Positions 1 to 13,378 of a stretch of 64,000 nt of DNA are shown here, in pieces. The position numbers and the translations under genes are program-made. Source of the DNA: Paracoccaceae bacterium (GTDB taxonomy: Bacteria; Pseudomonadota; Alphaproteobacteria; Rhodobacterales; Rhodobacteraceae). The notes beneath the pieces were generated by a model that saw only the letters and a program-made list of their open reading frames with translations, was not told the origin of the DNA and searched no databases. The first letter of the stretch is position 1. Each line of letters begins with the position of its first letter. The DNA is taken from NCBI GenBank assembly GCA_028285485.1, contig JANQPC010000054.1, positions 1 to 64,000 of the forward strand. The letters run 5' to 3'.

Positions 1-34
1 CTTCCTCGCCGAGTTGCCGTTTGCCGCGGGCCAT
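1..34 (-). CDS. Start of a gene cut by the left edge (possible Smr-domain protein)
   Basis: An ATG on the minus strand at position 34 opens a frame reading MARGKRQLGEE before the window ends. It starts 3 bases after the mltA stop, so it would be the next gene of the same minus-strand run. In related Rhodobacterales an Smr/MutS-family gene often follows mltA and starts with a similar basic stretch. Only 11 codons are visible, so the product is a guess from position. Confidence 0.35.
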   Translation of the reverse strand, partial: MARGKRQLGEE

Positions 35-37
35 GGG

Positions 38-1063
38 CTAGCCATCTGGCGCAAGCGCAAAGGCCCGCTCTATCGGAAGCAGCACGATCATGCGGCCCGG
101 ATCGCGCACAACGCCCGCCGCCTCGCCCGCCTCTGCCCCGGTGCCGTAGAACACATCTGCGCGCTGCGCGCCTTTGATTGCCGATCCGGTATCTTGCGCG
201 ATCATCAGCCGGCGCAAAGGCGCAACCCCTTCCTTTTCCACCCAGACCGGCGCGCCCAGCGGCGTGAATTCTGGATCAACCGCAAGGCTTCTGAGCGCGG
301 TGATCGACCGGTTCATGGCGCCAAGCGGCCCGGCATCGGATGGCACATCCGAAACCTCGCGGAAGAAGATGAACGAGGGATTGTGCTGCAGGAGCGCCGC
401 GCCCGCATCGGGGTTCTGGCGCACATAGTTACGGATCACCGATGCCGAAACCTGGTGCGGCTCGTAGACACCGCGGCGCACAAGCTCGGTGCCGACGGAT
501 CGGTATTCATGCCCGTTCCGCCCACCATAGCCCACGCGAATCTTGCCGCCGCCTTCCAGCTTCACGCGGCCAGAGCCCTGGATCTGCAGGAAAAACACAT
601 CTACCGGATCATCGATCCACGCGATCTCAAGGCCGCGGTTGGCCAGAACACGGGATTTCTCAATCTCTTCCCGCGTGAGCCAGATCTCGCCGGGCCGCAC
701 TTCGGGGGGTCTGCGGTAAAGCGGATAGCGGTATTCCTCGGTGCGGCGGAGCGAGCCGGAGAGCTCCGGCTCATAGTAGCCGGTGAAGAGCGCAGGATTG
801 CCGTCTTCAATCAGAACCGGGCGAAAGAACAGCTCAAAGAAGCTGCGCGCCTCGGGCCCGGATTGGCCCACGGCGCAGAGCGCCTGCCATTCGCGATCTT
901 CCAGATCGGGGCAGGTTTCCATGAATGCGGCAAGGGCGGCGGTATGATCATCCTCCGCCCAGCCCTCAAGATCTGAGAACGAAAGCTGTGTATAGCGGGG
1001 CTCTGCCATTGCCGCGGGCGCCATCGCCGCCGCCAGCAGAAGCCCGGCGCAAACGGCGCGCAT
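38..1063 (-). CDS. mltA: Membrane-bound lytic murein transglycosylase A
   Basis: A lytic transglycosylase that cleaves the MurNAc-GlcNAc bond of peptidoglycan and leaves 1,6-anhydro ends, acting in the periplasm. The 341-residue protein starts with a signal peptide (MRAVCAGLLLAAAMA, cleavage near AMA-EP). The MltA core contains FTGYYEPEL, and the C-terminal 3D domain contains AQDTGSAIKG and ADVFYGTG with the expected catalytic Asp. I chose the ATG at 1063 rather than the one at 1090 because it gives a clean signal peptide and overlaps the upstream stop by one base (TGATG), which suggests translational coupling with the Tim44-like gene. Length is normal for the family. Confidence 0.93.
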   Translation of the reverse strand: MRAVCAGLLLAAAMAPAAMAEPRYTQLSFSDLEGWAEDDHTAALAAFMETCPDLEDREWQALCAVGQSGPEARSFFELFFRPVLIEDGNPALFTGYYEPELSGSLRRTEEYRYPLYRRPPEVRPGEIWLTREEIEKSRVLANRGLEIAWIDDPVDVFFLQIQGSGRVKLEGGGKIRVGYGGRNGHEYRSVGTELVRRGVYEPHQVSASVIRNYVRQNPDAGAALLQHNPSFIFFREVSDVPSDAGPLGAMNRSITALRSLAVDPEFTPLGAPVWVEKEGVAPLRRLMIAQDTGSAIKGAQRADVFYGTGAEAGEAAGVVRDPGRMIVLLPIERAFALAPDG

Positions 1064-1731
1064 CACTCTCCGGTGGCGACCAAGATCCAATTGGGATCCT
1101 TCGCGCCCATTTCGCGCGAGAACGTCCAGACATCTTTCTGCCGCTTGATCTCGGTGGCATTGCCTTCCACGATATCGCCCTCGGCATTGCGCACCACCGA
1201 AGTCAGTTCGCCCACAAAGCGCACCGTCACCTCGCCTTCGCTTCTCTCGCGATCAAAGGCGGCATCCGCGAGGGTAATCTCGCGCACCCCCACGAAATTG
1301 GCCTCAATCGTCAGCCCTTCCGCTTCGCGATGGGCGATCACGGTATCGAAGGCTTCGGCCACTTCCGGCGAAAGAAAATCGCGCACATCCGAGATATCGC
1401 CGCTTTCGAAGGCCATGAGGATCATCTCATAGGCCCCGCGGGCGCCATCGAGGAATTCGGTCACGTTATAGCCGGGTTCGGCCATCTTCATCGCGGCAAG
1501 CGCCTTGGCGGCATCCGAGCCGTCTTCCACATGATCGGTGATATCGCGATCGGGGCCGCCCTCGATCACATCAAATTCGGGCCGGCCGCGGCGGCGGGTT
1601 TCATCGGCGCCCGGCGGCTGGATCGGCGGCTTTTCGAAGCCATCGCGCGTTCCAAGCACACTTCGCAGGCGCAGGATGAGAAACACCGCAATGCCGGCAA
1701 GAACCAGCAGTTGAATAATGGCAGAACTCAT
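1063..1731 (-). CDS. Tim44-like domain protein (TimA type)
   Basis: A 222-residue protein with an N-terminal membrane segment (about residues 3-20, SSAIIQLLVLAGIAVFLIL). A polar linker follows, then a C-terminal Tim44-like domain (about 95-222) ending in the family-typical WTFSREMGAKDPNWILV. Bacterial Tim44-like proteins sit at the inner membrane in alphaproteobacteria and are thought to help assembly or scaffolding; the mitochondrial relative tethers Hsp70 to the import channel. Start at 1731 is chosen because the membrane helix begins at once; an ATG at 1764 would add 11 residues. It is translationally coupled to mltA and divergent from fxsA. Confidence 0.85.
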   Translation of the reverse strand: MSSAIIQLLVLAGIAVFLILRLRSVLGTRDGFEKPPIQPPGADETRRRGRPEFDVIEGGPDRDITDHVEDGSDAAKALAAMKMAEPGYNVTEFLDGARGAYEMILMAFESGDISDVRDFLSPEVAEAFDTVIAHREAEGLTIEANFVGVREITLADAAFDRERSEGEVTVRFVGELTSVVRNAEGDIVEGNATEIKRQKDVWTFSREMGAKDPNWILVATGE

Positions 1732-1836
1732 CGAAACCCTCTTGGTGACAGTCTGGAATGGCAAGTTGCACAGTCCGCACTTATGTAGGTCACCGGTGCT
1801 GGCAAGTCTACCGCGCCACCAATTCGTGAGGTCTCC

Positions 1837-2325
1837 ATGTGGCTCTTTGCTCTCTTTCTTGCCGTTCCGCTGATCGAGATCGCGCTTTTCATTCAGATCG
1901 GCGGGTGGATCGGGCTGTTTCCAACGCTGGGCGTGGTTGTTCTAACCGCCATTCTGGGCACCTTTCTGGTGCGCAGCCAGGGCGCGCAGGCGTTAAACGG
2001 GTTGCGCGGCGCAATGGCGGATCTGCGCGATCCGACCGATGCGCTGGCCCATGGTGCGATGATTCTCTTTTCCGGGGCGTTACTGTTAACCCCGGGGTTC
2101 TTCACCGATGCCGTGGGCTTTGCGCTGCTGATCCCGGGCGTGCGGCAGGCGATCATCCGACGGGTACGGGCCCGGATCACGGTGGCGGAGTTTGAATACA
2201 ACACCACGCGCGCTGCGCCCCATGGTGCCCATCCGGGCAGAAATGATGTGATCGATGGCGATTTCGAAGATGTCACGCCCCGGCCCCGGGGCGATGGCAA
2301 ACCCTCTGGCTGGACGCAGCATTGA
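1837..2325 (+). CDS. fxsA: FxsA family membrane protein
   Basis: A 162-residue inner-membrane protein of the FxsA family, named for suppression of F-exclusion of phage T7 in Escherichia coli when overproduced; its cellular role is not known. The first 20 residues form a helix (MWLFALFLAVPLIEIALFI), followed by the GGWIGLFPTL turn, a second helix, and a third near LTPGFFTDAVGFALLIPG. The C-terminal 50 residues are polar. GTGAGGT just upstream serves as ribosome site. It is divergent from the Tim44-like gene and followed by secB on the same strand after 61 bases. Confidence 0.88.
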   Translation: MWLFALFLAVPLIEIALFIQIGGWIGLFPTLGVVVLTAILGTFLVRSQGAQALNGLRGAMADLRDPTDALAHGAMILFSGALLLTPGFFTDAVGFALLIPGVRQAIIRRVRARITVAEFEYNTTRAAPHGAHPGRNDVIDGDFEDVTPRPRGDGKPSGWTQH

Positions 2326-2386
2326 GGGCCCCGGGCCCCTCTGTTAGAGACATCGCGACTTAATCGAATGCCCGAAGAGGAACCAG

Positions 2387-2920
2387 ATGGCCGACGCAGA
2401 GAACGGGGCAAAGGAAAACGGTGCCGCCAGTGCCGCCCAAGCACAGATCAAGATGCAGATCGTCGGGCAGTATATCCGCGACCTGTCGTTTGAAAACAAC
2501 GTGGTGCAGCAGGGCATCAGCGGCGAAGTGAACCCCGATATCCAGGTTCAGGTGAGCATCGATGCCAAGAAGCGGCAGGTGGAGAACCAGTACGAGGTTG
2601 TCTCGAAGTTCATCATCACCTCGAAAAACAAGGGCTCGGATCAGACGCTGTTTCTTATGGAGCTCGATTACGGCGGGATCTTCATGATCGAGAACGTGCC
2701 GGACGAGCAGATGCACCCGTTTCTCTTCATCGAATGCCCACGGATGCTGTTCCCCTATGCGCGCCGGATCGTCAGTGACGTAACGCGCGATGGCGGGTTC
2801 CCGCAGCTGAACCTTGAGAACATCGATTTCGTGGCGCTTTACCGCCAAACGCTGCTTCAGCGGCAGGCGGCGCAGAAAGCCGCCGCCGAGGCGGCAGAAA
2901 AGGATGAACCGGCCAGCTAG
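2387..2920 (+). CDS. secB: Protein-export chaperone SecB
   Basis: A cytoplasmic tetrameric chaperone that holds preproteins unfolded and passes them to SecA. The 177-residue sequence has the SecB core from QYIRDLSFEN (about 29) through GGIFMIENVPDEQ to CPRMLFPYARRIVSDVTRDGG, with a short acidic and alanine-rich tail. An N-terminal extension of about 20 polar residues is common in alphaproteobacteria. SecB beside dnaQ, coaE, aroE and maf is the usual arrangement next to the replication origin in this group. It converges on dnaQ with a 10-base gap. Confidence 0.97.
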   Translation: MADAENGAKENGAASAAQAQIKMQIVGQYIRDLSFENNVVQQGISGEVNPDIQVQVSIDAKKRQVENQYEVVSKFIITSKNKGSDQTLFLMELDYGGIFMIENVPDEQMHPFLFIECPRMLFPYARRIVSDVTRDGGFPQLNLENIDFVALYRQTLLQRQAAQKAAAEAAEKDEPAS

Positions 2921-2930
2921 GCCGGGGCCC

Positions 2931-3620
2931 CTACGCCTGCGATTTCCAGATCGGCTGATCGCCCAATGTGGCGATGAATGCCTCATGGCGCGCCGCTTCC
3001 GCCTCGGTGATCCGGGGCGGGAGGGCTTTGGGCCGCGGGGCCGGGCGCCAGGCGGCGGTTTCCGCCGTATCGCCCCGCGACGATGCCGTTGTGAGCGCGA
3101 AATCCGGCTGACGGCCGCCAATCAGCTCCAAATACACCTCGGCGAGGATCTCGCTATCAAGAAGCGCGCCATGCAGCGTGCGGGCCGAGTTATCGATCGA
3201 AAACCTGCGGCAGAGCGCATCGAGCGAGGCGGGTGAGCCCGGAAACTTCTTGCGGGCGATCGCAAGCGTATCGATCGCCTGATCCCAGGGGAGGGCGGGG
3301 CGTTTGAGCCACCCGAGCTCTGCATTGATGAACTTCATGTCAAAGGCCGCGTTGTGGATGACGAGCTTTGCATCGCCCACAAAAGCGAGAAACTCGTCGA
3401 CGATGGCGCGGAACGGCGGCTTATCCCGCAAAAACGCATCGTCGAGCCCGTGAACCGCCTGCGCCTCTTCCGACATAGCGCGCTCGGGATTGATATACTG
3501 GTGATACACATTGCCGGTGGGGACGTGGCCCAGAAGCTCAACCCCGCCGATTTCGACGATGCGGTCGCCCGCTTCGGGATCAAGCCCCGTCGTCTCCGTA
3601 TCCAGCACGATTTCCCGCAT
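2931..3620 (-). CDS. dnaQ: DNA polymerase III epsilon subunit, 3'-5' exonuclease
   Basis: The proofreading exonuclease of the replicative polymerase. The 229-residue protein shows the DEDDh pattern: [11 protein letters not shown] at the start (Asp and Glu), [11 protein letters not shown] in the middle, and [17 protein letters not shown] with the catalytic His and last Asp. The exonuclease domain covers about residues 1-170; the rest is a linker and a short C-terminal segment that should bind the polymerase subunit. The start overlaps the 3' end of coaE by 41 bases, fitting a single maf-aroE-coaE-dnaQ transcript. Confidence 0.96.
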
Positions 3621-4212
3621 CTGCCCGCCCCGCCCCTATGGTTTTAACGATGTCTGCCACGGCGCGGCGCGCGCCCTCAAGGGATTTCGTGGGGATCACG
3701 TGATCGGCGCGAGCACGCTTTTCGGCATCGCTCATCTGGTTGGCACGGAGCCGTTCGAAATGCTCAACCGTCATTCCCGGGCGCGCCAGAACGCGGTGGC
3801 GTTGAACGGCGGCGGGGGCCGAGACAACCGCAACGCTGTCAAAGCCACCTTCGCTTCCCGTTTCAAACAGCAGCGGGATGTCGCAGACAACAAGTTCTGC
3901 CGTTGATGTTGCGATGAAGGCCGCCCGGTCTGCCGCCACCAGTGGGTGCACAACCGATTCGATTTGTGCCAGCGCCGTGGGATCCTTCGAGATCCACGCC
4001 TTCAGACGCGCGCGATCAACCGCGCCGTTCACAATGGCATCCGGGCGAAGCGCGGCCAGAGGCGCCACCGCGGCCCCGCCTTCGGCATAGATCCGGTGCA
4101 CAGCGGCATCGGCATCCCAGATATCTGCGCCATGCTCGGCAAACATCGCCGCCGTTGTCGATTTGCCCATCCCGATGGAGCCGGTGAGACCAAGCAGGTA
4201 AGGGCGGCTCAT
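3580..4212 (-). CDS. coaE: Dephospho-CoA kinase
   Basis: Last step of coenzyme A synthesis: phosphorylation of the 3'-hydroxyl of dephospho-CoA with ATP. The 210-residue protein opens with the P-loop [12 protein letters not shown] (residues 8-19), then WDADAAVH and the CoaE-typical HPLV, plus [12 protein letters not shown] (Walker B region). Its start overlaps the aroE stop by four bases (ATGA). The C-terminal 41 bases run into dnaQ, so the last residues ([11 protein letters not shown]) are probably not functionally important. Confidence 0.95.
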
Positions 4213-5045
4213 GGCGCCAGCACGGCCGCGCGCGCCTCGGCATCCACCACGGGGCGGAAGCCGAACCAGCGCTCAAATCCCGGAACGGCCTGGTGCAGGA
4301 GCATGCCGAGCCCATCCACCACCGTTGCGCCACGTTCCCGCGCAAGCCGCAAAAGCGGGGTATCGAGCGGGGTGTAGACGAGATCGGTGACAACCATGGA
4401 GTCATCAATCGCATCGAGCGGGATGCGAAGCTCCGGCGCGCCGGTCATGCCCAGTGAGGTTGTGTTGACCACCAGGGCAGCGCCATCGATGGCATTGCCG
4501 GCCTGCACCCATTCAATCACTTCAATCCGCGCCCCGAAGGCATCGCGCAGCGCATCGCTGCGCGCACGGGTGCGGTTTGTGAGCCGGATCTGCGGCACGC
4601 CGGCATCGAGCAGGGCCCAGATCACCGCCCGCGCCGCGCCGCCTGCGCCAATCACCGCTGCCGGGCCAACTGCCGGATCCCATCCCGGCGCACCGCTGCG
4701 CAGGTTTTCCATGAAGCCGTAGCCATCCGTGTTATCGGCATGTACCTTGCCATTGGATTGAAACACGATGGTGTTGGCCGCGCCCATGATCGCCGCACGA
4801 TCGGAGACGACATCGGCAAAGTTCAGAACCGCTTCTTTATGCGGGATGGTGACATTGGCCCCGACAAAGCCGAGTTTCGGCAGCGTCGCGAAGGCCGTTT
4901 CAAGATCCGCCGAGGCAACTTCCAACGGAATGTAGTGGCCCGCGATCCCGTTTTTGGCGAGCCAGTAGCCGTGAAGCCGCGGTGATCGCGAATGGGCGAC
5001 CGGCGCGCCGATAACCCCCGCGAGCGGTATCCTGTTTCCCTTCAT
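4209..5045 (-). CDS. aroE: Shikimate dehydrogenase
   Basis: Reduces 3-dehydroshikimate to shikimate with NADPH in the aromatic amino acid pathway. The 278-residue protein has the substrate-binding start (GVIGAPVAHSRSPRLH), NVTIPHKEAV with the catalytic Lys, the NTDGYGF motif, the Rossmann glycine motif GAGGAARAV, and VNTTSLGM. The ATG at 5045 is chosen because it overlaps the maf stop by four bases (ATGA) and gives the normal family length; longer upstream frames only reread maf. Confidence 0.96.
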   Translation of the reverse strand: MKGNRIPLAGVIGAPVAHSRSPRLHGYWLAKNGIAGHYIPLEVASADLETAFATLPKLGFVGANVTIPHKEAVLNFADVVSDRAAIMGAANTIVFQSNGKVHADNTDGYGFMENLRSGAPGWDPAVGPAAVIGAGGAARAVIWALLDAGVPQIRLTNRTRARSDALRDAFGARIEVIEWVQAGNAIDGAALVVNTTSLGMTGAPELRIPLDAIDDSMVVTDLVYTPLDTPLLRLARERGATVVDGLGMLLHQAVPGFERWFGFRPVVDAEARAAVLAP

Positions 5046-5641
5046 CCCTCGATCACCCCCCGCAACCGGAGATACGCCAGAAGCTCCAAAAGCGGGAGCC
5101 CCAGAATGGCAAAATGCGATCCCTCGATGCGCTGAAAGAGGCATACACCCTCTTCCTCGATCTTGTAGCCGCCCACACTGTGGCGAATGCTCTCCCAGTT
5201 CCGATCCACGTAAGCCTCGATATACGCGGCGGACAGGGCGTGCATCTGCAGCCGCACCGTGGAGACATGGCGCCAAACGGGGCGGCCCTCTTCAAAGATC
5301 ACGGCGGCGGAGTGAAGCGCGTGGCGCGTGCCGGAGAGAGCACCAAGAAGCGCGCAGGCTTCCTCTGGCGAGGCTGATTTGCCAATGGTTCGGCCCTCGT
5401 GATCGAGCACCTGATCGGAGCCCAGAACAAGCGCGCCGCTGCCCGCATCGGCCACGCGGCTTGCCTTGAGCTCGGCCAGGGCATCGGCGATATCGCGGGG
5501 CGGGGCACCTTCGGCGGTGAGGCTTTCGCGGATCGTGGCCTCGTCCACGCGGGGTGCAGCGACCTCAAATTCCAGGCCGGCGGCCCGTAGCATCGCAGCC
5601 CGGGTTACGGAGCCAGAGGCGAGGATGAGCGATGTTCTCAT
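5042..5641 (-). CDS. maf: Maf family nucleotide pyrophosphatase
   Basis: Maf proteins hydrolyse non-canonical or modified nucleoside triphosphates to monophosphates and have been linked to septum formation. The 199-residue protein starts with LILASGSVTRAAML, close to the family LASxSPRR pattern but with Val-Thr in place of Pro-Arg, and carries LGSDQVL and GKSASPEEA. The closest named subtype (YceF or YhdE) cannot be settled by eye. It is the first gene of the leftward run from the presumed origin, followed by aroE with a 4-base overlap. Confidence 0.93.
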   Translation of the reverse strand: MRTSLILASGSVTRAAMLRAAGLEFEVAAPRVDEATIRESLTAEGAPPRDIADALAELKASRVADAGSGALVLGSDQVLDHEGRTIGKSASPEEACALLGALSGTRHALHSAAVIFEEGRPVWRHVSTVRLQMHALSAAYIEAYVDRNWESIRHSVGGYKIEEEGVCLFQRIEGSHFAILGLPLLELLAYLRLRGVIEG

Positions 5642-6024
5642 TATGATCTTGTGGAAATCAGTGTGAACGGCGCGCGCGCGGCTGAGTATGGGTTACCCAA
5701 ACCCCCGGCGGCGAGGATCATCTGCCCTATCCCAAGAAGATACTCAAGAATTCATGCGCTGTGCGTATTGGATCACCGCGCATGTCCATAACTCCGCCGC
5801 TGCGTGGCGCACGGGCGGTTCCGGCCGCCCCGAAGAAATACAAAACCCTGGAAAATATGGATAATATAGCCTGTATGCATCCCGGATGCAGGCCAGTCGG
5901 GCGCCTGATCCGGTGGAAAACTCTGTGGGCATTCAAACAATCCCCATCATCCACAGGCCCAACAAACACATCATCTTTTTCTTTCTAAGATTCTTATTTT
6001 AAGGAGGGCCGGGCGGGAGATCAC
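5642..6024. other. oriC: Putative chromosomal replication origin (oriC)
   Basis: This 383-base gap lies between maf (leftward) and hemJ (rightward). I see no gene in it. Four 9-mers are one mismatch from the DnaA box TTWTNCACA: 5650-5658 (minus, ATTTCCACA), 5856-5864 (minus, TTATCCATA), 5912-5920 (minus, TTTTCCACC) and 5947-5955 (plus, TCATCCACA). The last 40 bases (about 5962-6003) are AT-rich, unlike the surroundings, and contain a GANTC methylation site (5989-5993). In Caulobacter and relatives the origin lies in this gene neighbourhood, and gene direction flips here. The call is an inference; no start-site data exist in the sequence. Confidence 0.65.
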
Positions 6025-6477
6025 ATGACCGAGATACTGATCAGCGTTTACCCCTGGGCCAAGTCGCTTCACGTGATCTCCGTGATCGCATGGATGGCCG
6101 GGCTCTTCTATCTACCGCGTCTCTACGTGTATCACACAGAGGCGGTCAGTGACGGCAGCGAAACCGATACGCTTTTTCAAACCATGGAACGTCGGCTTCT
6201 TCGGGCCATCATGAACCCGGCCATGATTGCCTCATGGGCTTTCGGGCTGACCCTTGTCGCAACCCCGGGCATTGTGGATTGGGGCGCGCTATGGCCCTGG
6301 CTGAAACTGGCCGCGATCCTTGGGATGACATGGTTCCACATGTGGTGCGCGGCGCGGCGGAAAGAGTTTGCGGCGGGCCGGAACACACGCAGCGGCCGCC
6401 ACTATCGGATGATGAATGAGGTGCCAACGGTGCTTCTGATCGTGATCGTTATCTCTGTTATCGCGCGGCCGTTCTGA
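6025..6477 (+). CDS. hemJ: Protoporphyrinogen oxidase HemJ
   Basis: Oxidises protoporphyrinogen IX to protoporphyrin IX in heme synthesis; HemJ is the form used by most alphaproteobacteria that lack HemG and HemY. The 150-residue protein has about four membrane helices. The N-terminal block WAKSLHVISVIAWMAGLFYL, with the conserved His, is the family signature, followed by LPRLYVYH. Good ribosome sites (AAGGAGG at 6001-6007 and GGGAG before the ATG) support the start. It is the first rightward gene after the presumed origin; hemE, often nearby in other alphaproteobacteria, is not in the window. Confidence 0.93.
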   Translation: MTEILISVYPWAKSLHVISVIAWMAGLFYLPRLYVYHTEAVSDGSETDTLFQTMERRLLRAIMNPAMIASWAFGLTLVATPGIVDWGALWPWLKLAAILGMTWFHMWCAARRKEFAAGRNTRSGRHYRMMNEVPTVLLIVIVISVIARPF

Positions 6478-9188: not shown

Positions 9189-11063
9189 GTGTTTCACGTG
9201 AAACATCCCAGCTTTGATGTTTTGGTCATCGGCGGCGGCCATGCCGGCTGCGAAGCCGCGCATGCTGCTGCGCGCCGGGGCGCCGACGTGGCGCTTGTCA
9301 CGCTTTCGCGCGACGGCATTGGCGTGATGTCCTGCAACCCCGCGATCGGGGGCCTCGGCAAAGGCCATCTCGTGCGCGAGATCGATGCGCTTGACGGGGT
9401 GATGGGCCACGTGGCGGATGAAGCCGGGATTCAGTTTCGCTTGCTCAACCGCCGAAAAGGCCCCGCCGTACAGGGGCCCCGTGCCCAAGCCGACCGGGCG
9501 CTGTACCGCGCCGCAATGCTGCGCGAGATGGCGGATCACCCGCGGATCGCGATTGTAGAAGGCGAGGTTGCGGATTTCATCCTCACCGGCGGCGCGGTTC
9601 GCGGTGTCACCCTGGCCGATGGCACAGAGCTCGCAGCGCAAACGGTGATCCTCACCACCGGAACTTTCCTGCGCGGTGTCATCCATATTGGTGACCGTCA
9701 GATCGCCGGGGGCCGGATGGGCGAGCGCCCCTCGGTGCGCCTGGCGGAGCGGATCGATGGCTTCGGGCTTCCCATGGGCCGCCTGAAAACCGGCACGCCG
9801 CCACGGATTGACGGAAAAACCATCGATTGGGCGCGGCTTGAGGCGCAGCCGGGCGATGACGATCCCGCGATGTTTTCCTTCCTGTCCACGGCACCGTCGG
9901 CCCGGCAGGTGCCCTGCGGGATCGCACATACCAATGCCCGCACCCATGAGATTATCCGCGAAAACCTTGGCCGTTCGGCGATGTATGGCGGGCAGATCGC
10001 GGGTACGGGGCCGCGCTACTGCCCTTCGATTGAAGACAAAATCGTGCGGTTCGCAGAGAAAGAATCCCACCAGGTGTTTCTGGAGCCTGAGGGGCTCACC
10101 ACCGATACGGTATATCCGAACGGCATTTCCACCTCGCTCCCCGAAGATGTTCAGGTGGCCTATGTGCGAACGATTGCAGGGCTGGAGCAGGCTGAGATCA
10201 CGCAGCCGGGCTATGCGATTGAGTATGACTATCTCGATCCCCGCGCGCTGCGCGATACGCTGGAAATGCGCGATGTGCCCGGGCTGTACCTTGCGGGCCA
10301 GATCAATGGCACCACGGGGTATGAGGAAGCCGCGGCGCAGGGGCTTGTGGCGGGGCTCAATGCGGCCGGCGTGGCGCTGGGCCTCGATGCAGTCACCTTC
10401 TCCCGCCGAACATCGTATATTGGGGTTCTCGTGGACGATCTGATCACGCGCGGGGTGTCAGAGCCCTATCGCATGTTCACCTCGCGGGCGGAGTTTCGGC
10501 TTTCGCTTCGCGCCGACAATGCCGACCAGCGTTTGACCCCATTGGGGCTGGCGGCCGGTTGCGTTGGCGATCGCCGGCGCGTGGCGTTTTCCCGGAAGAT
10601 GGAGGCGCTCGAAGCCGGGCGCTCGGCGCTCGGTTCCACCGCCTATTCTCCGCAAGAGGTTGCGCCAGCTGGCATTACCCTTTCGAATGACGGCTCCCGC
10701 CGCACCGCGTTTGAACTGCTGTCTGTGCCCGGTGTTACGCTGGAACAGGTGGTTGCGCTCGATCCGGGGCTCTCTGCTCATCCGCCCGGAATACTTGAGC
10801 AACTGGCGCGTGACGCGCTCTATGCCAATTACATCGAGCGGCAGGAGCGGGATGCAGAGGCGCTGCGCCGCGATGAGGGCCATGCGATTCCGGAAGGGTT
10901 CGACTATGGCGCGCTTTCGGGCCTGTCTTCGGAGCTCAAGCTGAAACTCACCGCTGCCCAGCCCGCAACCCTTGCACAGGCAGGCCGGATCGAGGGGATG
11001 ACGCCCGCGGCGCTTACGCTTCTGCTGTCGAAGATTCGCAGCGCTGAGCGCCGCAGCGCCTAG
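9189..11063 (+). CDS. mnmG: tRNA uridine-5-carboxymethylaminomethyl modification enzyme MnmG (GidA)
   Basis: The FAD-dependent partner of MnmE in U34 modification. The 624-residue protein has the FAD-binding [10 protein letters not shown] (about 14-23), the [21 protein letters not shown] block, TTGTFLRGV, the second nucleotide motif, and the [10 protein letters not shown] signature. The frame opens at GTG 9189 inside the parS palindrome (reading MFHVKHPS); an in-frame GTG at 9198 is an alternative giving MKHPS. The same MFHVKH start is common in related genomes, where parS is embedded too. It abuts rsmG without a gap. Confidence 0.97.
9190..9205. promoter_or_regulatory. parS: parS centromere site 1
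   Basis: TGTTTCACGTGAAACA is a perfect 16-bp palindrome and matches the chromosomal parS consensus exactly. ParB loads here as a CTP-dependent clamp and, with ParA, moves the origin region apart after replication. It overlaps the mnmG start and encodes the FHVKH residues of that protein. It lies about 3.2 kb from the presumed origin and 3.3 kb before parB. Confidence 0.95.
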
Positions 11064-11675
11064 ATGCCGTCGCATGCTATCGGGCTGGATGTTTCACGTG
11101 AAACATCGGAGCGGTTGGAAATCTACGCCGCGCTCCTGAAGAAGTGGAATCCTCGGATCAATCTGGTGGCACCGGCGACGCTTCCGGAGCTGTGGCACCG
11201 CCATTTCGCGGATTCGGCGCAGCTCTGGGCGCTGGCGCCGGATTTCCAGCATTGGGCGGACCTCGGTGCAGGCGGCGGGTTTCCGGGCGCGGTAGTTGCG
11301 ATTCTTGCGCAGGAGCGGCGGCCTGACGCGCGGATCACCCTCGTGGAAAGCGATCGCCGGAAAGCCACCTTCCTCAGAACCGTTGCGCGCGAGACGGGCG
11401 CGGCGTTTTCTGTTGCCGATCAACGCATCGAGTCGCTCAGGCCCCTCTCGGCCGAGGTGGTCAGCGCCCGCGCCCTGGCGCCCTTGCCGGGCCTTCTGCC
11501 GCTAATAGCCCGCCATCTTTCCCCCGGCGGCACCGCGCTTTTGCCCAAGGGCCGCCGGTCTGATGCCGAGATCGAGAAGGCGCTTGAAACGTGGCGATTT
11601 GATTGCCAGAAGACCGCGAGCATGACCGATCCCTCGGGGGTGATCTTGAAATTGACGGAGATTGAACGTGCCTGA
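11064..11675 (+). CDS. rsmG: 16S rRNA (guanine-527-N7)-methyltransferase RsmG (GidB)
   Basis: Methylates N7 of G527 in 16S rRNA using S-adenosylmethionine. The 203-residue protein has the typical N-terminal helix and KKWNPRINLVAP, then the SAM-binding WADLGAGGGFPG and LVESDRRKATFL, and SARALAPL further on. The N-terminal segment GLDVSRETS is encoded by parS site 2, so its sequence is set in part by ParB binding. It is flush with mnmG and overlaps the start of parA. Confidence 0.96.
   Translation: MPSHAIGLDVSRETSERLEIYAALLKKWNPRINLVAPATLPELWHRHFADSAQLWALAPDFQHWADLGAGGGFPGAVVAILAQERRPDARITLVESDRRKATFLRTVARETGAAFSVADQRIESLRPLSAEVVSARALAPLPGLLPLIARHLSPGGTALLPKGRRSDAEIEKALETWRFDCQKTASMTDPSGVILKLTEIERA
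11090..11105. promoter_or_regulatory. parS: parS centromere site 2
   Basis: A second perfect TGTTTCACGTGAAACA palindrome, 1.9 kb from the first. It lies inside rsmG and is read there as VSRET (residues about 10-14). With site 1 it forms the centromere region just upstream of parA and parB. Confidence 0.95.
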
Positions 11676-12471
11676 CGTCCTGGATGGGCCCGGGCCGCGG
11701 ATCATCGCGATTGCCAACCAAAAGGGCGGCGTTGGCAAAACGACGACGGCGATCAACCTGGGCGCGGCTCTTGCGGAGCTTGGGCATAGGACGCTGCTTG
11801 TTGATCTCGATCCGCAGGGCAATGCCTCCACCGGGCTCGGGATCGATCTCGCGCGCCGCGAGGTTTCAACCTACGATCTGCTGATCGAAGACGCCCCGCT
11901 TGAGAGCGTGTTGCAGCAAACGGAAACGGAGGATCTGTGGATCGCCCCGGCCACAACGGATCTGAGTTCCGCGGATATCGAACTTGTTGCCAATGAAAAC
12001 CGCAGCCACCTCCTTCACAAGGCACTTCGCCAGGAGGCCGCGCGTCGTTTTTCGTTCATCCTGATCGATTGCCCGCCCTCGCTGAGCCTTCTGACGGTCA
12101 ACGCGATGGTGGCCGCGCATTCCATCCTGGTGCCGCTTCAAAGCGAGTTTTTCGCGCTGGAAGGCCTGTCCCAGCTCATGCTAACCATGCGGGAAGTGCG
12201 GCAGACAGCGAATCCCGATCTGCGCATCGAAGGTGTGGTGCTGACCATGTTCGATGCCCGCAACAATCTAAGCAAGCTCGTGGAAGACGACGCGCGCGAA
12301 ACCCTGGGCGAGATGGTGTTTGACACCATTGTGCCGCGCAATGTGCGGCTGAGCGAGGCGCCCTCCTTCGCGATGCCGGTGCTGGCCTATGATGATCTGT
12401 CGAAAGGCAGCCTTGCCTATCGCGCGCTTGCACAAGAGATGGTAGAACGGCACGAAGAGGCCGCAATATAA
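11668..12471 (+). CDS. parA: Chromosome-partitioning ATPase ParA
   Basis: A deviant Walker ATPase that drives segregation of ParB-parS complexes along the nucleoid. The P-loop is NQKGGVGKTTTAINL (about residues 14-28), followed by VDLDPQGNASTGLG and LIDCPPSLSLL. Two starts are possible: TTG at 11662 and GTG at 11668. I prefer GTG because GGAG at 11657-11660 is well placed for it. The start lies inside the last codons of rsmG, so the two are probably coupled. parB follows after seven bases. Confidence 0.97.
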   Translation: MPDVLDGPGPRIIAIANQKGGVGKTTTAINLGAALAELGHRTLLVDLDPQGNASTGLGIDLARREVSTYDLLIEDAPLESVLQQTETEDLWIAPATTDLSSADIELVANENRSHLLHKALRQEAARRFSFILIDCPPSLSLLTVNAMVAAHSILVPLQSEFFALEGLSQLMLTMREVRQTANPDLRIEGVVLTMFDARNNLSKLVEDDARETLGEMVFDTIVPRNVRLSEAPSFAMPVLAYDDLSKGSLAYRALAQEMVERHEEAAI

Positions 12472-12478
12472 GGGTCTA

Positions 12479-13378
12479 GTGAAAATGGCGGACCGAAAAG
12501 AGAAGCGTGGGCTTGGGCGCGGGTTATCGGCCTTGATGGCGGATGTGGCGCCTGCTCCGGGTGTCGCCGAGGCCGCGCCGCGCGAGGATACCACGCAGAT
12601 CTCGATCGACCGTATTCTGCCGAACCCCGATCAGCCGCGCCGTAGTTTCGATGACACTGCCCTGAAAGAGCTTGCGCAATCGATCCGCCAGCACGGGGTG
12701 ATCCAGCCGCTGATCCTGCGCCCGGTGGGCGAGGGGTATCAGATCGTGGCCGGGGAACGCCGATGGCGCGCAGCGCAGATCGCCCAGCTTCACGATGTGC
12801 CCGCCCTGGTGCGCGATCTCAGCGATACCGATGTGCTTGAGATCGCGATCATCGAAAACGTGCAGCGCGCCGATCTCAACCCGATGGATGAGGCGCTGGG
12901 CTACGATCAGCTGATCACCCGGTTCAACTACACCCAGGCGCAGCTTGCCGAGGCGCTTGGAAAAAGCCGCAGCCATATCGCGAATATGCTGCGGCTCATC
13001 GGCCTGCCGGGGGATGTGCAGGCGCTTCTGGTGGAGGGCGCGCTTTCGGCGGGCCATGGGCGGGCGCTTCTAATGGCAGGCGATCCCTCGCAACTGGCCG
13101 CAGAGGTGGTGCGGCGCGGGCTTTCGGTGCGGCAGACCGAGGCGCTGGTTAAGGCCGATCAGCGCCGAACTGCGGCGCCCGCCCGGCCCACCGCGCAGGC
13201 CAAAGAGGCTGATACCCAGGCATTGGAGAATGATCTCTCCGCCGCGCTTTCGATGCGCGTTGTGATCGATCATCCGCCTGGCCAGGAAGCAGGCAAGCTT
13301 ACAGTGCGCTACGCCTCGCTTGATCAGTTGGATGATCTTTGCCGCAGGCTTTCAGTCAGCCAGCCGGCAGAGCTTTAG
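12479..13378 (+). CDS. parB: Chromosome-partitioning protein ParB
   Basis: Binds parS and spreads as a CTP-fuelled sliding clamp. The 299-residue protein has the N-terminal ParA-stimulating segment (KRGLGRGLSALM), the NPDQPRRSF box, the CTP-binding GERRWRAAQ and ENVQRADLNPMDEA, a helix-turn-helix (LAEALGKSRSHIANMLRL), and a C-terminal dimer domain after a linker near residue 235. It starts with GTG at 12479 or ATG at 12485. It converges on hemW with a four-base overlap. Confidence 0.97.
   Translation: MKMADRKEKRGLGRGLSALMADVAPAPGVAEAAPREDTTQISIDRILPNPDQPRRSFDDTALKELAQSIRQHGVIQPLILRPVGEGYQIVAGERRWRAAQIAQLHDVPALVRDLSDTDVLEIAIIENVQRADLNPMDEALGYDQLITRFNYTQAQLAEALGKSRSHIANMLRLIGLPGDVQALLVEGALSAGHGRALLMAGDPSQLAAEVVRRGLSVRQTEALVKADQRRTAAPARPTAQAKEADTQALENDLSAALSMRVVIDHPPGQEAGKLTVRYASLDQLDDLCRRLSVSQPAEL

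Follow-up and report, generated by a model that had tools for sequence, protein, structure and literature searches.

In this Rhodobacteraceae bacterium, the 383-bp gap between the divergent genes maf (minus strand) and hemJ (plus strand) is very probably the replication origin (oriC) of the main chromosome, as judged from comparison of sequences. Support for the origin reading comes from synteny, the length of the gap, enrichment of DnaA boxes, profile homology, a single right-end module, similarity to the ppsR-hemE gaps of other alphaproteobacteria, and the skew minimum of relatives. The result is well supported but ordinary, and its location has already been published for Rhodobacteraceae. 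An oriC adjoining maf is conserved in this family according to DoriC, as reported in a 2016 genome paper in which the origin of Ketogulonicigenium vulgare was predicted with DnaA boxes at the same place (PMC4793288). The present sequence is one more instance, with no difference of substance. In a study of 101 Rhodobacteraceae genomes, origins were assigned from DnaA boxes, from GC disparity and from the nearness of parAB (PMC6699656). The location of the origin fixes base zero and the replichore direction of the present genome. Unless another contig or genome is named, the positions below are those of the window, the whole stretch of 64,000 nucleotides that was analyzed. The gap and its boundary genes are as follows:

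5042..5641, minus strand: maf, left boundary gene (Pfam PF02545)
5642..6024, no strand: maf–hemJ intergenic gap, the putative oriC (profile match 5643-6023 and synteny in 80/80 loci)
6025..6477, plus strand: hemJ (UPF0093), right boundary gene (Pfam PF03653)

The change of gene direction across 5642-6024 that the first-pass annotation had described was confirmed, both in its coordinates and in the divergence of maf and hemJ. The genes dnaQ-coaE-aroE-maf are located on the minus strand to the left of the gap, and hemJ-rho-mnmE-mnmG-rsmG-parA-parB on the plus strand to the right. The accompanying statement that nearly all essential genes lead away from the gap holds in its vicinity; further to the right the orientations are mixed, as the open reading frames at 13.4-16 kb that encode proteins of the HemN/HemW radical SAM type, the Ham1 family and the RNase PH family are on the minus strand. 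The AT content of the gap is 46%, compared with 37% in the window. The assembly consists of 116 contigs (3.79 Mb), and base 1 of the window is the first base of contig C41. Within positions 1-5641, the assembly break can thus be seen about 5.6 kb to the left of the putative origin, just beyond an mltA-like gene.

Conservation of this arrangement was examined in 80 Rhodobacterales loci obtained from a HemJ scan of species genomes; these are the closest HemJ matches, and the sample is therefore skewed to near relatives. In 80 of 80 of these closest Rhodobacteraceae loci, maf is directly to the left of hemJ, with rho and mnmE following hemJ. The gap of the relatives measures 347-458 bp (mean 408 bp), and hemE, ppsR and hemH were found in none of the 80 loci. 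When 20 relatives were searched with the nucleotide sequence of the gap itself, only one 30-bp match was obtained, and profiles were needed for this reason. The profile HMM (nhmmer) built from the 80 gaps of the relatives, with the window excluded, matches the window end to end (5643-6023, E=5.9e-26). It also matches the corresponding places in the complete relative G003, in the Maritimibacter chromosome G021, one of the training sequences under the name L035, and in a further family member, L185.

DnaA boxes were counted as mismatches to the consensus TTATCCACA. The gap contains six boxes at no more than two mismatches, two of them with one mismatch and four with two, and no perfect box:

5650..5658, minus strand: left-end DnaA box ATTTCCACA, 2 mismatches, aligned to the conserved CCCTGTGGANAA of relatives
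5693..5701, plus strand: weak DnaA-like box TTACCCAAA, 2 mismatches, outside the conserved column blocks
5783..5791, minus strand: DnaA-like box TTATGGACA, 2 mismatches, a degenerate counterpart of a box that relatives have at the aligned position
5856..5864, minus strand: DnaA box TTATCCATA, 1 mismatch, from the consensus scan
5912..5920, minus strand: DnaA box TTTTCCACC, 2 mismatches, conserved in its position, 35 bp to the left of the anchor
5947..5955, plus strand: anchor DnaA box TCATCCACA, 1 mismatch, best conserved of all the boxes and directed at the AT-rich element

It had been claimed at first that four boxes differ from the consensus by a single mismatch; only those at 5856 and 5947 are of this kind, and the other four carry two. 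Mononucleotide shuffles of the gap give an expectation of 0.07 for the two one-mismatch boxes (p=0.003) and of 0.86 for all six, a number reached in 0 of 3000 shuffles. Nowhere else within the window do two boxes at no more than one mismatch occur in one 375-bp stretch. The same enrichment appears in the 80 relatives, in which boxes at no more than one mismatch reach 7.05/kb in the gaps and 0.19/kb in the flanks (about 37-fold), and exact boxes reach 1.06/kb and 0.005/kb, respectively. The first-pass annotation had regarded imperfect boxes as unusual for a working origin. This does not apply to Rhodobacteraceae, in which imperfect boxes are the rule, because the gap is devoid of perfect boxes in 53 of the 80 relatives. 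The boxes of the present genome are weaker than the family consensus and weaker than those of many relatives, and according to the 101-genome study, searches for one-mismatch boxes miss some origins (PMC6699656). Exact distances between boxes recur at few positions in the relatives, chiefly the anchor box and the box 35 bp before it, which is found at exactly that position in 38 of 80 sequences; the others drift.

In the alignment of the relatives, conservation within the gap is highest in the anchor box together with the adjacent element. The element is the following:

5956..6003, plus strand: putative DNA unwinding element, with a GGCCC spacer, a trinucleotide-like stretch ending in ACATCATC and a T-rich tract, conserved in relatives

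The AT-rich end that had been noticed earlier is indeed present at the right end of the gap, where positions 5960-6003 are 75% AT; only 0.03% of 44-nt windows are that AT-rich. A strongly conserved TTATCCACAGGCCCTACAACANCATCATCTTTT with a three-base rhythm can be observed at 5947-6003 and upstream of hemJ in the loci of the relatives (L010-L089), the rest of the gap being fast-changing. A model of the right-end module, built from the sequences of 30 relatives with the window excluded, gave one match in the present genome (5924-6019, E=2.7e-16), and no second module was found there up to E=10. The GANTC site mentioned in the first-pass annotation does exist, at 5989, but it is uninformative, as 0.4 are expected per 383 bp and the motif is neither enriched in the gap nor conserved when the gaps of the relatives are compared.

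The parS sites that had been placed 3-5 kb from the gap proved to be perfect 16-mers, followed by the segregation operon:

9190..9205, no strand: parS TGTTTCACGTGAAACA, perfect 16-mer
11090..11105, no strand: parS TGTTTCACGTGAAACA, perfect 16-mer
11662..13378, plus strand: parA-parB segregation operon (Pfam AAA_31 and ParB_N/HTH_ParB/ParB_C)

A search for the 14-bp core with 0-1 mismatch allowed found no parS site other than these two in the 3.79-Mb genome. The cumulative GC skew of the window has its minimum near 5.3 kb, with a mean skew of -0.022 to the left and +0.026 to the right, the contig beginning at base 1, 5.6 kb left of the gap. In the 80 relatives, the mean skew likewise switches at the gap, being mostly negative to its left and mostly positive to its right. 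In the complete, single-contig relative G003, from which 15-kb samples were taken every 90 kb, the cumulative minimum of the samples falls at 3.42-3.47 Mb, and 3.4775 Mb is the position of the homologous gap. In G021, the second complete relative, the sampled minimum is at 1.645 Mb and the rise starts with the sample in which the gap (1.793 Mb) is contained; the turn is located between 1.645 and 1.78 Mb.

The absence of hemE and ppsR from the window, also remarked upon in the first-pass annotation, was verified: hemE of the present genome is found beside hemC on contig C28, and ppsR was not found in the assembly. It had been supposed from this absence that the flanks may be rearranged. The supposition is correct, but the rearrangement is a family-wide trait and not special to the present genome. 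In a class-wide sample of alphaproteobacteria, the genes are usually arranged as maf-ppsR-[gap]-hemE-hemH-hemJ-rho, with ppsR identified via Pfam, and maf is still on the left in 18 of 20 fetched loci. No ppsR was seen in L184, L201 and L202, in which hemE-hemH is kept, and the arrangement in L185, a member of the family, is maf-[gap]-hemJ as in the window. Several other alphaproteobacteria are matched by the Rhodobacteraceae gap profile in their ppsR-hemE or maf-hemE gap, with E values from 3e-5 to 2e-3 (L186, 3e-5; L202, 3e-4; L196, 5e-4; L197, 1e-3; L195, 2e-3). These matches imply that the origin stayed in place and that the flanking genes were lost. On this comparison of gap profiles, the maf–hemJ gap is the presumptive canonical alphaproteobacterial oriC after the departure of ppsR and hemE-hemH from its flanks. 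The alphaproteobacterial origin would thus have kept its place during the loss of these genes in Rhodobacteraceae.

A conserved gap between divergent genes, whose right end adjoins the start codon of hemJ, may be expected to contain promoter elements, and it could be argued that the region is merely a divergent promoter or leader of maf and hemJ in which the DnaA boxes are regulatory. Such an explanation is very improbable, as it does not agree with the degree of box enrichment in relatives, with the similarity to ppsR-hemE gaps that have different flanking genes, with the skew minimum at the gap in complete relatives, or with the proximity of parS. An Rfam search of the gap, moreover, gave no match.

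It is equally improbable that the active origin is located elsewhere, for example near hemE, near dnaA or at a pair of perfect boxes on contig C9. Several perfect boxes beside hemE or dnaA had been named in advance as evidence that would contradict the maf–hemJ location, and they were looked for: the hemE locus (L009, 4 kb) contains no box at one mismatch or fewer, and the dnaA locus (L090, 3.5 kb) contains a single one-mismatch box. In favor of another location is contig C9, on which a DEAD-box helicase gene is preceded by two perfect boxes with a distance of 300 bp between them. This pair was rejected as a second origin; the right-end model finds no second genomic site, and matches to the C9 gap occur in only 4 of 40 relatives and are short and partial. 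The two C9 boxes (3866-3874 and 4166-4174; L002:1201-1509) are in the same orientation, with a prfC-like gene ending on one side of them and the DEAD-box RNA helicase gene on the other, and perhaps represent a regulatory or titration site of DnaA.

If the maf–hemJ gap acts as the origin, DnaA would bind the box cluster (5650, 5783, 5856 and 5912) together with the anchor box at 5947, whose orientation is towards the AT-rich element 5956-6003. From the anchor box, DnaA-ATP may spread onto one strand of this element and cause its melting. Helicase loading would follow, and two forks would depart, one on the maf side and one on the hemJ side. The new origins would then be separated by ParB bound at the parS sites, which are 3-5 kb to the right.

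The experimentally mapped origin of Caulobacter crescentus (Cori) is located between hemE and COG1806, i.e. ppsR (PMC1914354). The neighborhood is common to both systems (in the class-wide sample, maf is found to one side and hemJ-rho to the other), and the window gap resembles the ppsR-hemE gaps of other alphaproteobacteria by profile. In contrast to Cori, ppsR and hemE-hemH are absent from the flanks in the window. The gap also differs from a Caulobacter-type origin controlled by CtrA, as no CtrA-like site TTAA-N7-TTAA was found in it at one mismatch or fewer.

Search rules for the basal unwinding system of DnaA box and DnaA-trio (PMC8287927, PMC6669920) comprise a DnaA box, a spacer of up to 16 bp and at least three NAN triplets (PMC8287927). 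The window has the one-mismatch box at 5947, a 14-bp spacer and six NTN triplets, a central T on the top strand being a central A on the other strand. This resemblance, scored irrespective of the strand polarity relative to B. subtilis, is only suggestive, as a T-rich tract satisfies such a rule easily. The right-end module, consisting of the anchor box, a GGCCC-type spacer, a CAN/ATC trinucleotide stretch and a T tract, might conceivably be a family-specific unwinding element whose trinucleotides are read by DnaA differently from the 3'-GAT-5' trios of Bacillus, although this seems rather unlikely.

Among 100 sampled genomes of the family, the right-end model found matches in 71, one in each. 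The family alignment provides a single-copy marker, which could help to locate origins in draft Rhodobacteraceae genomes.
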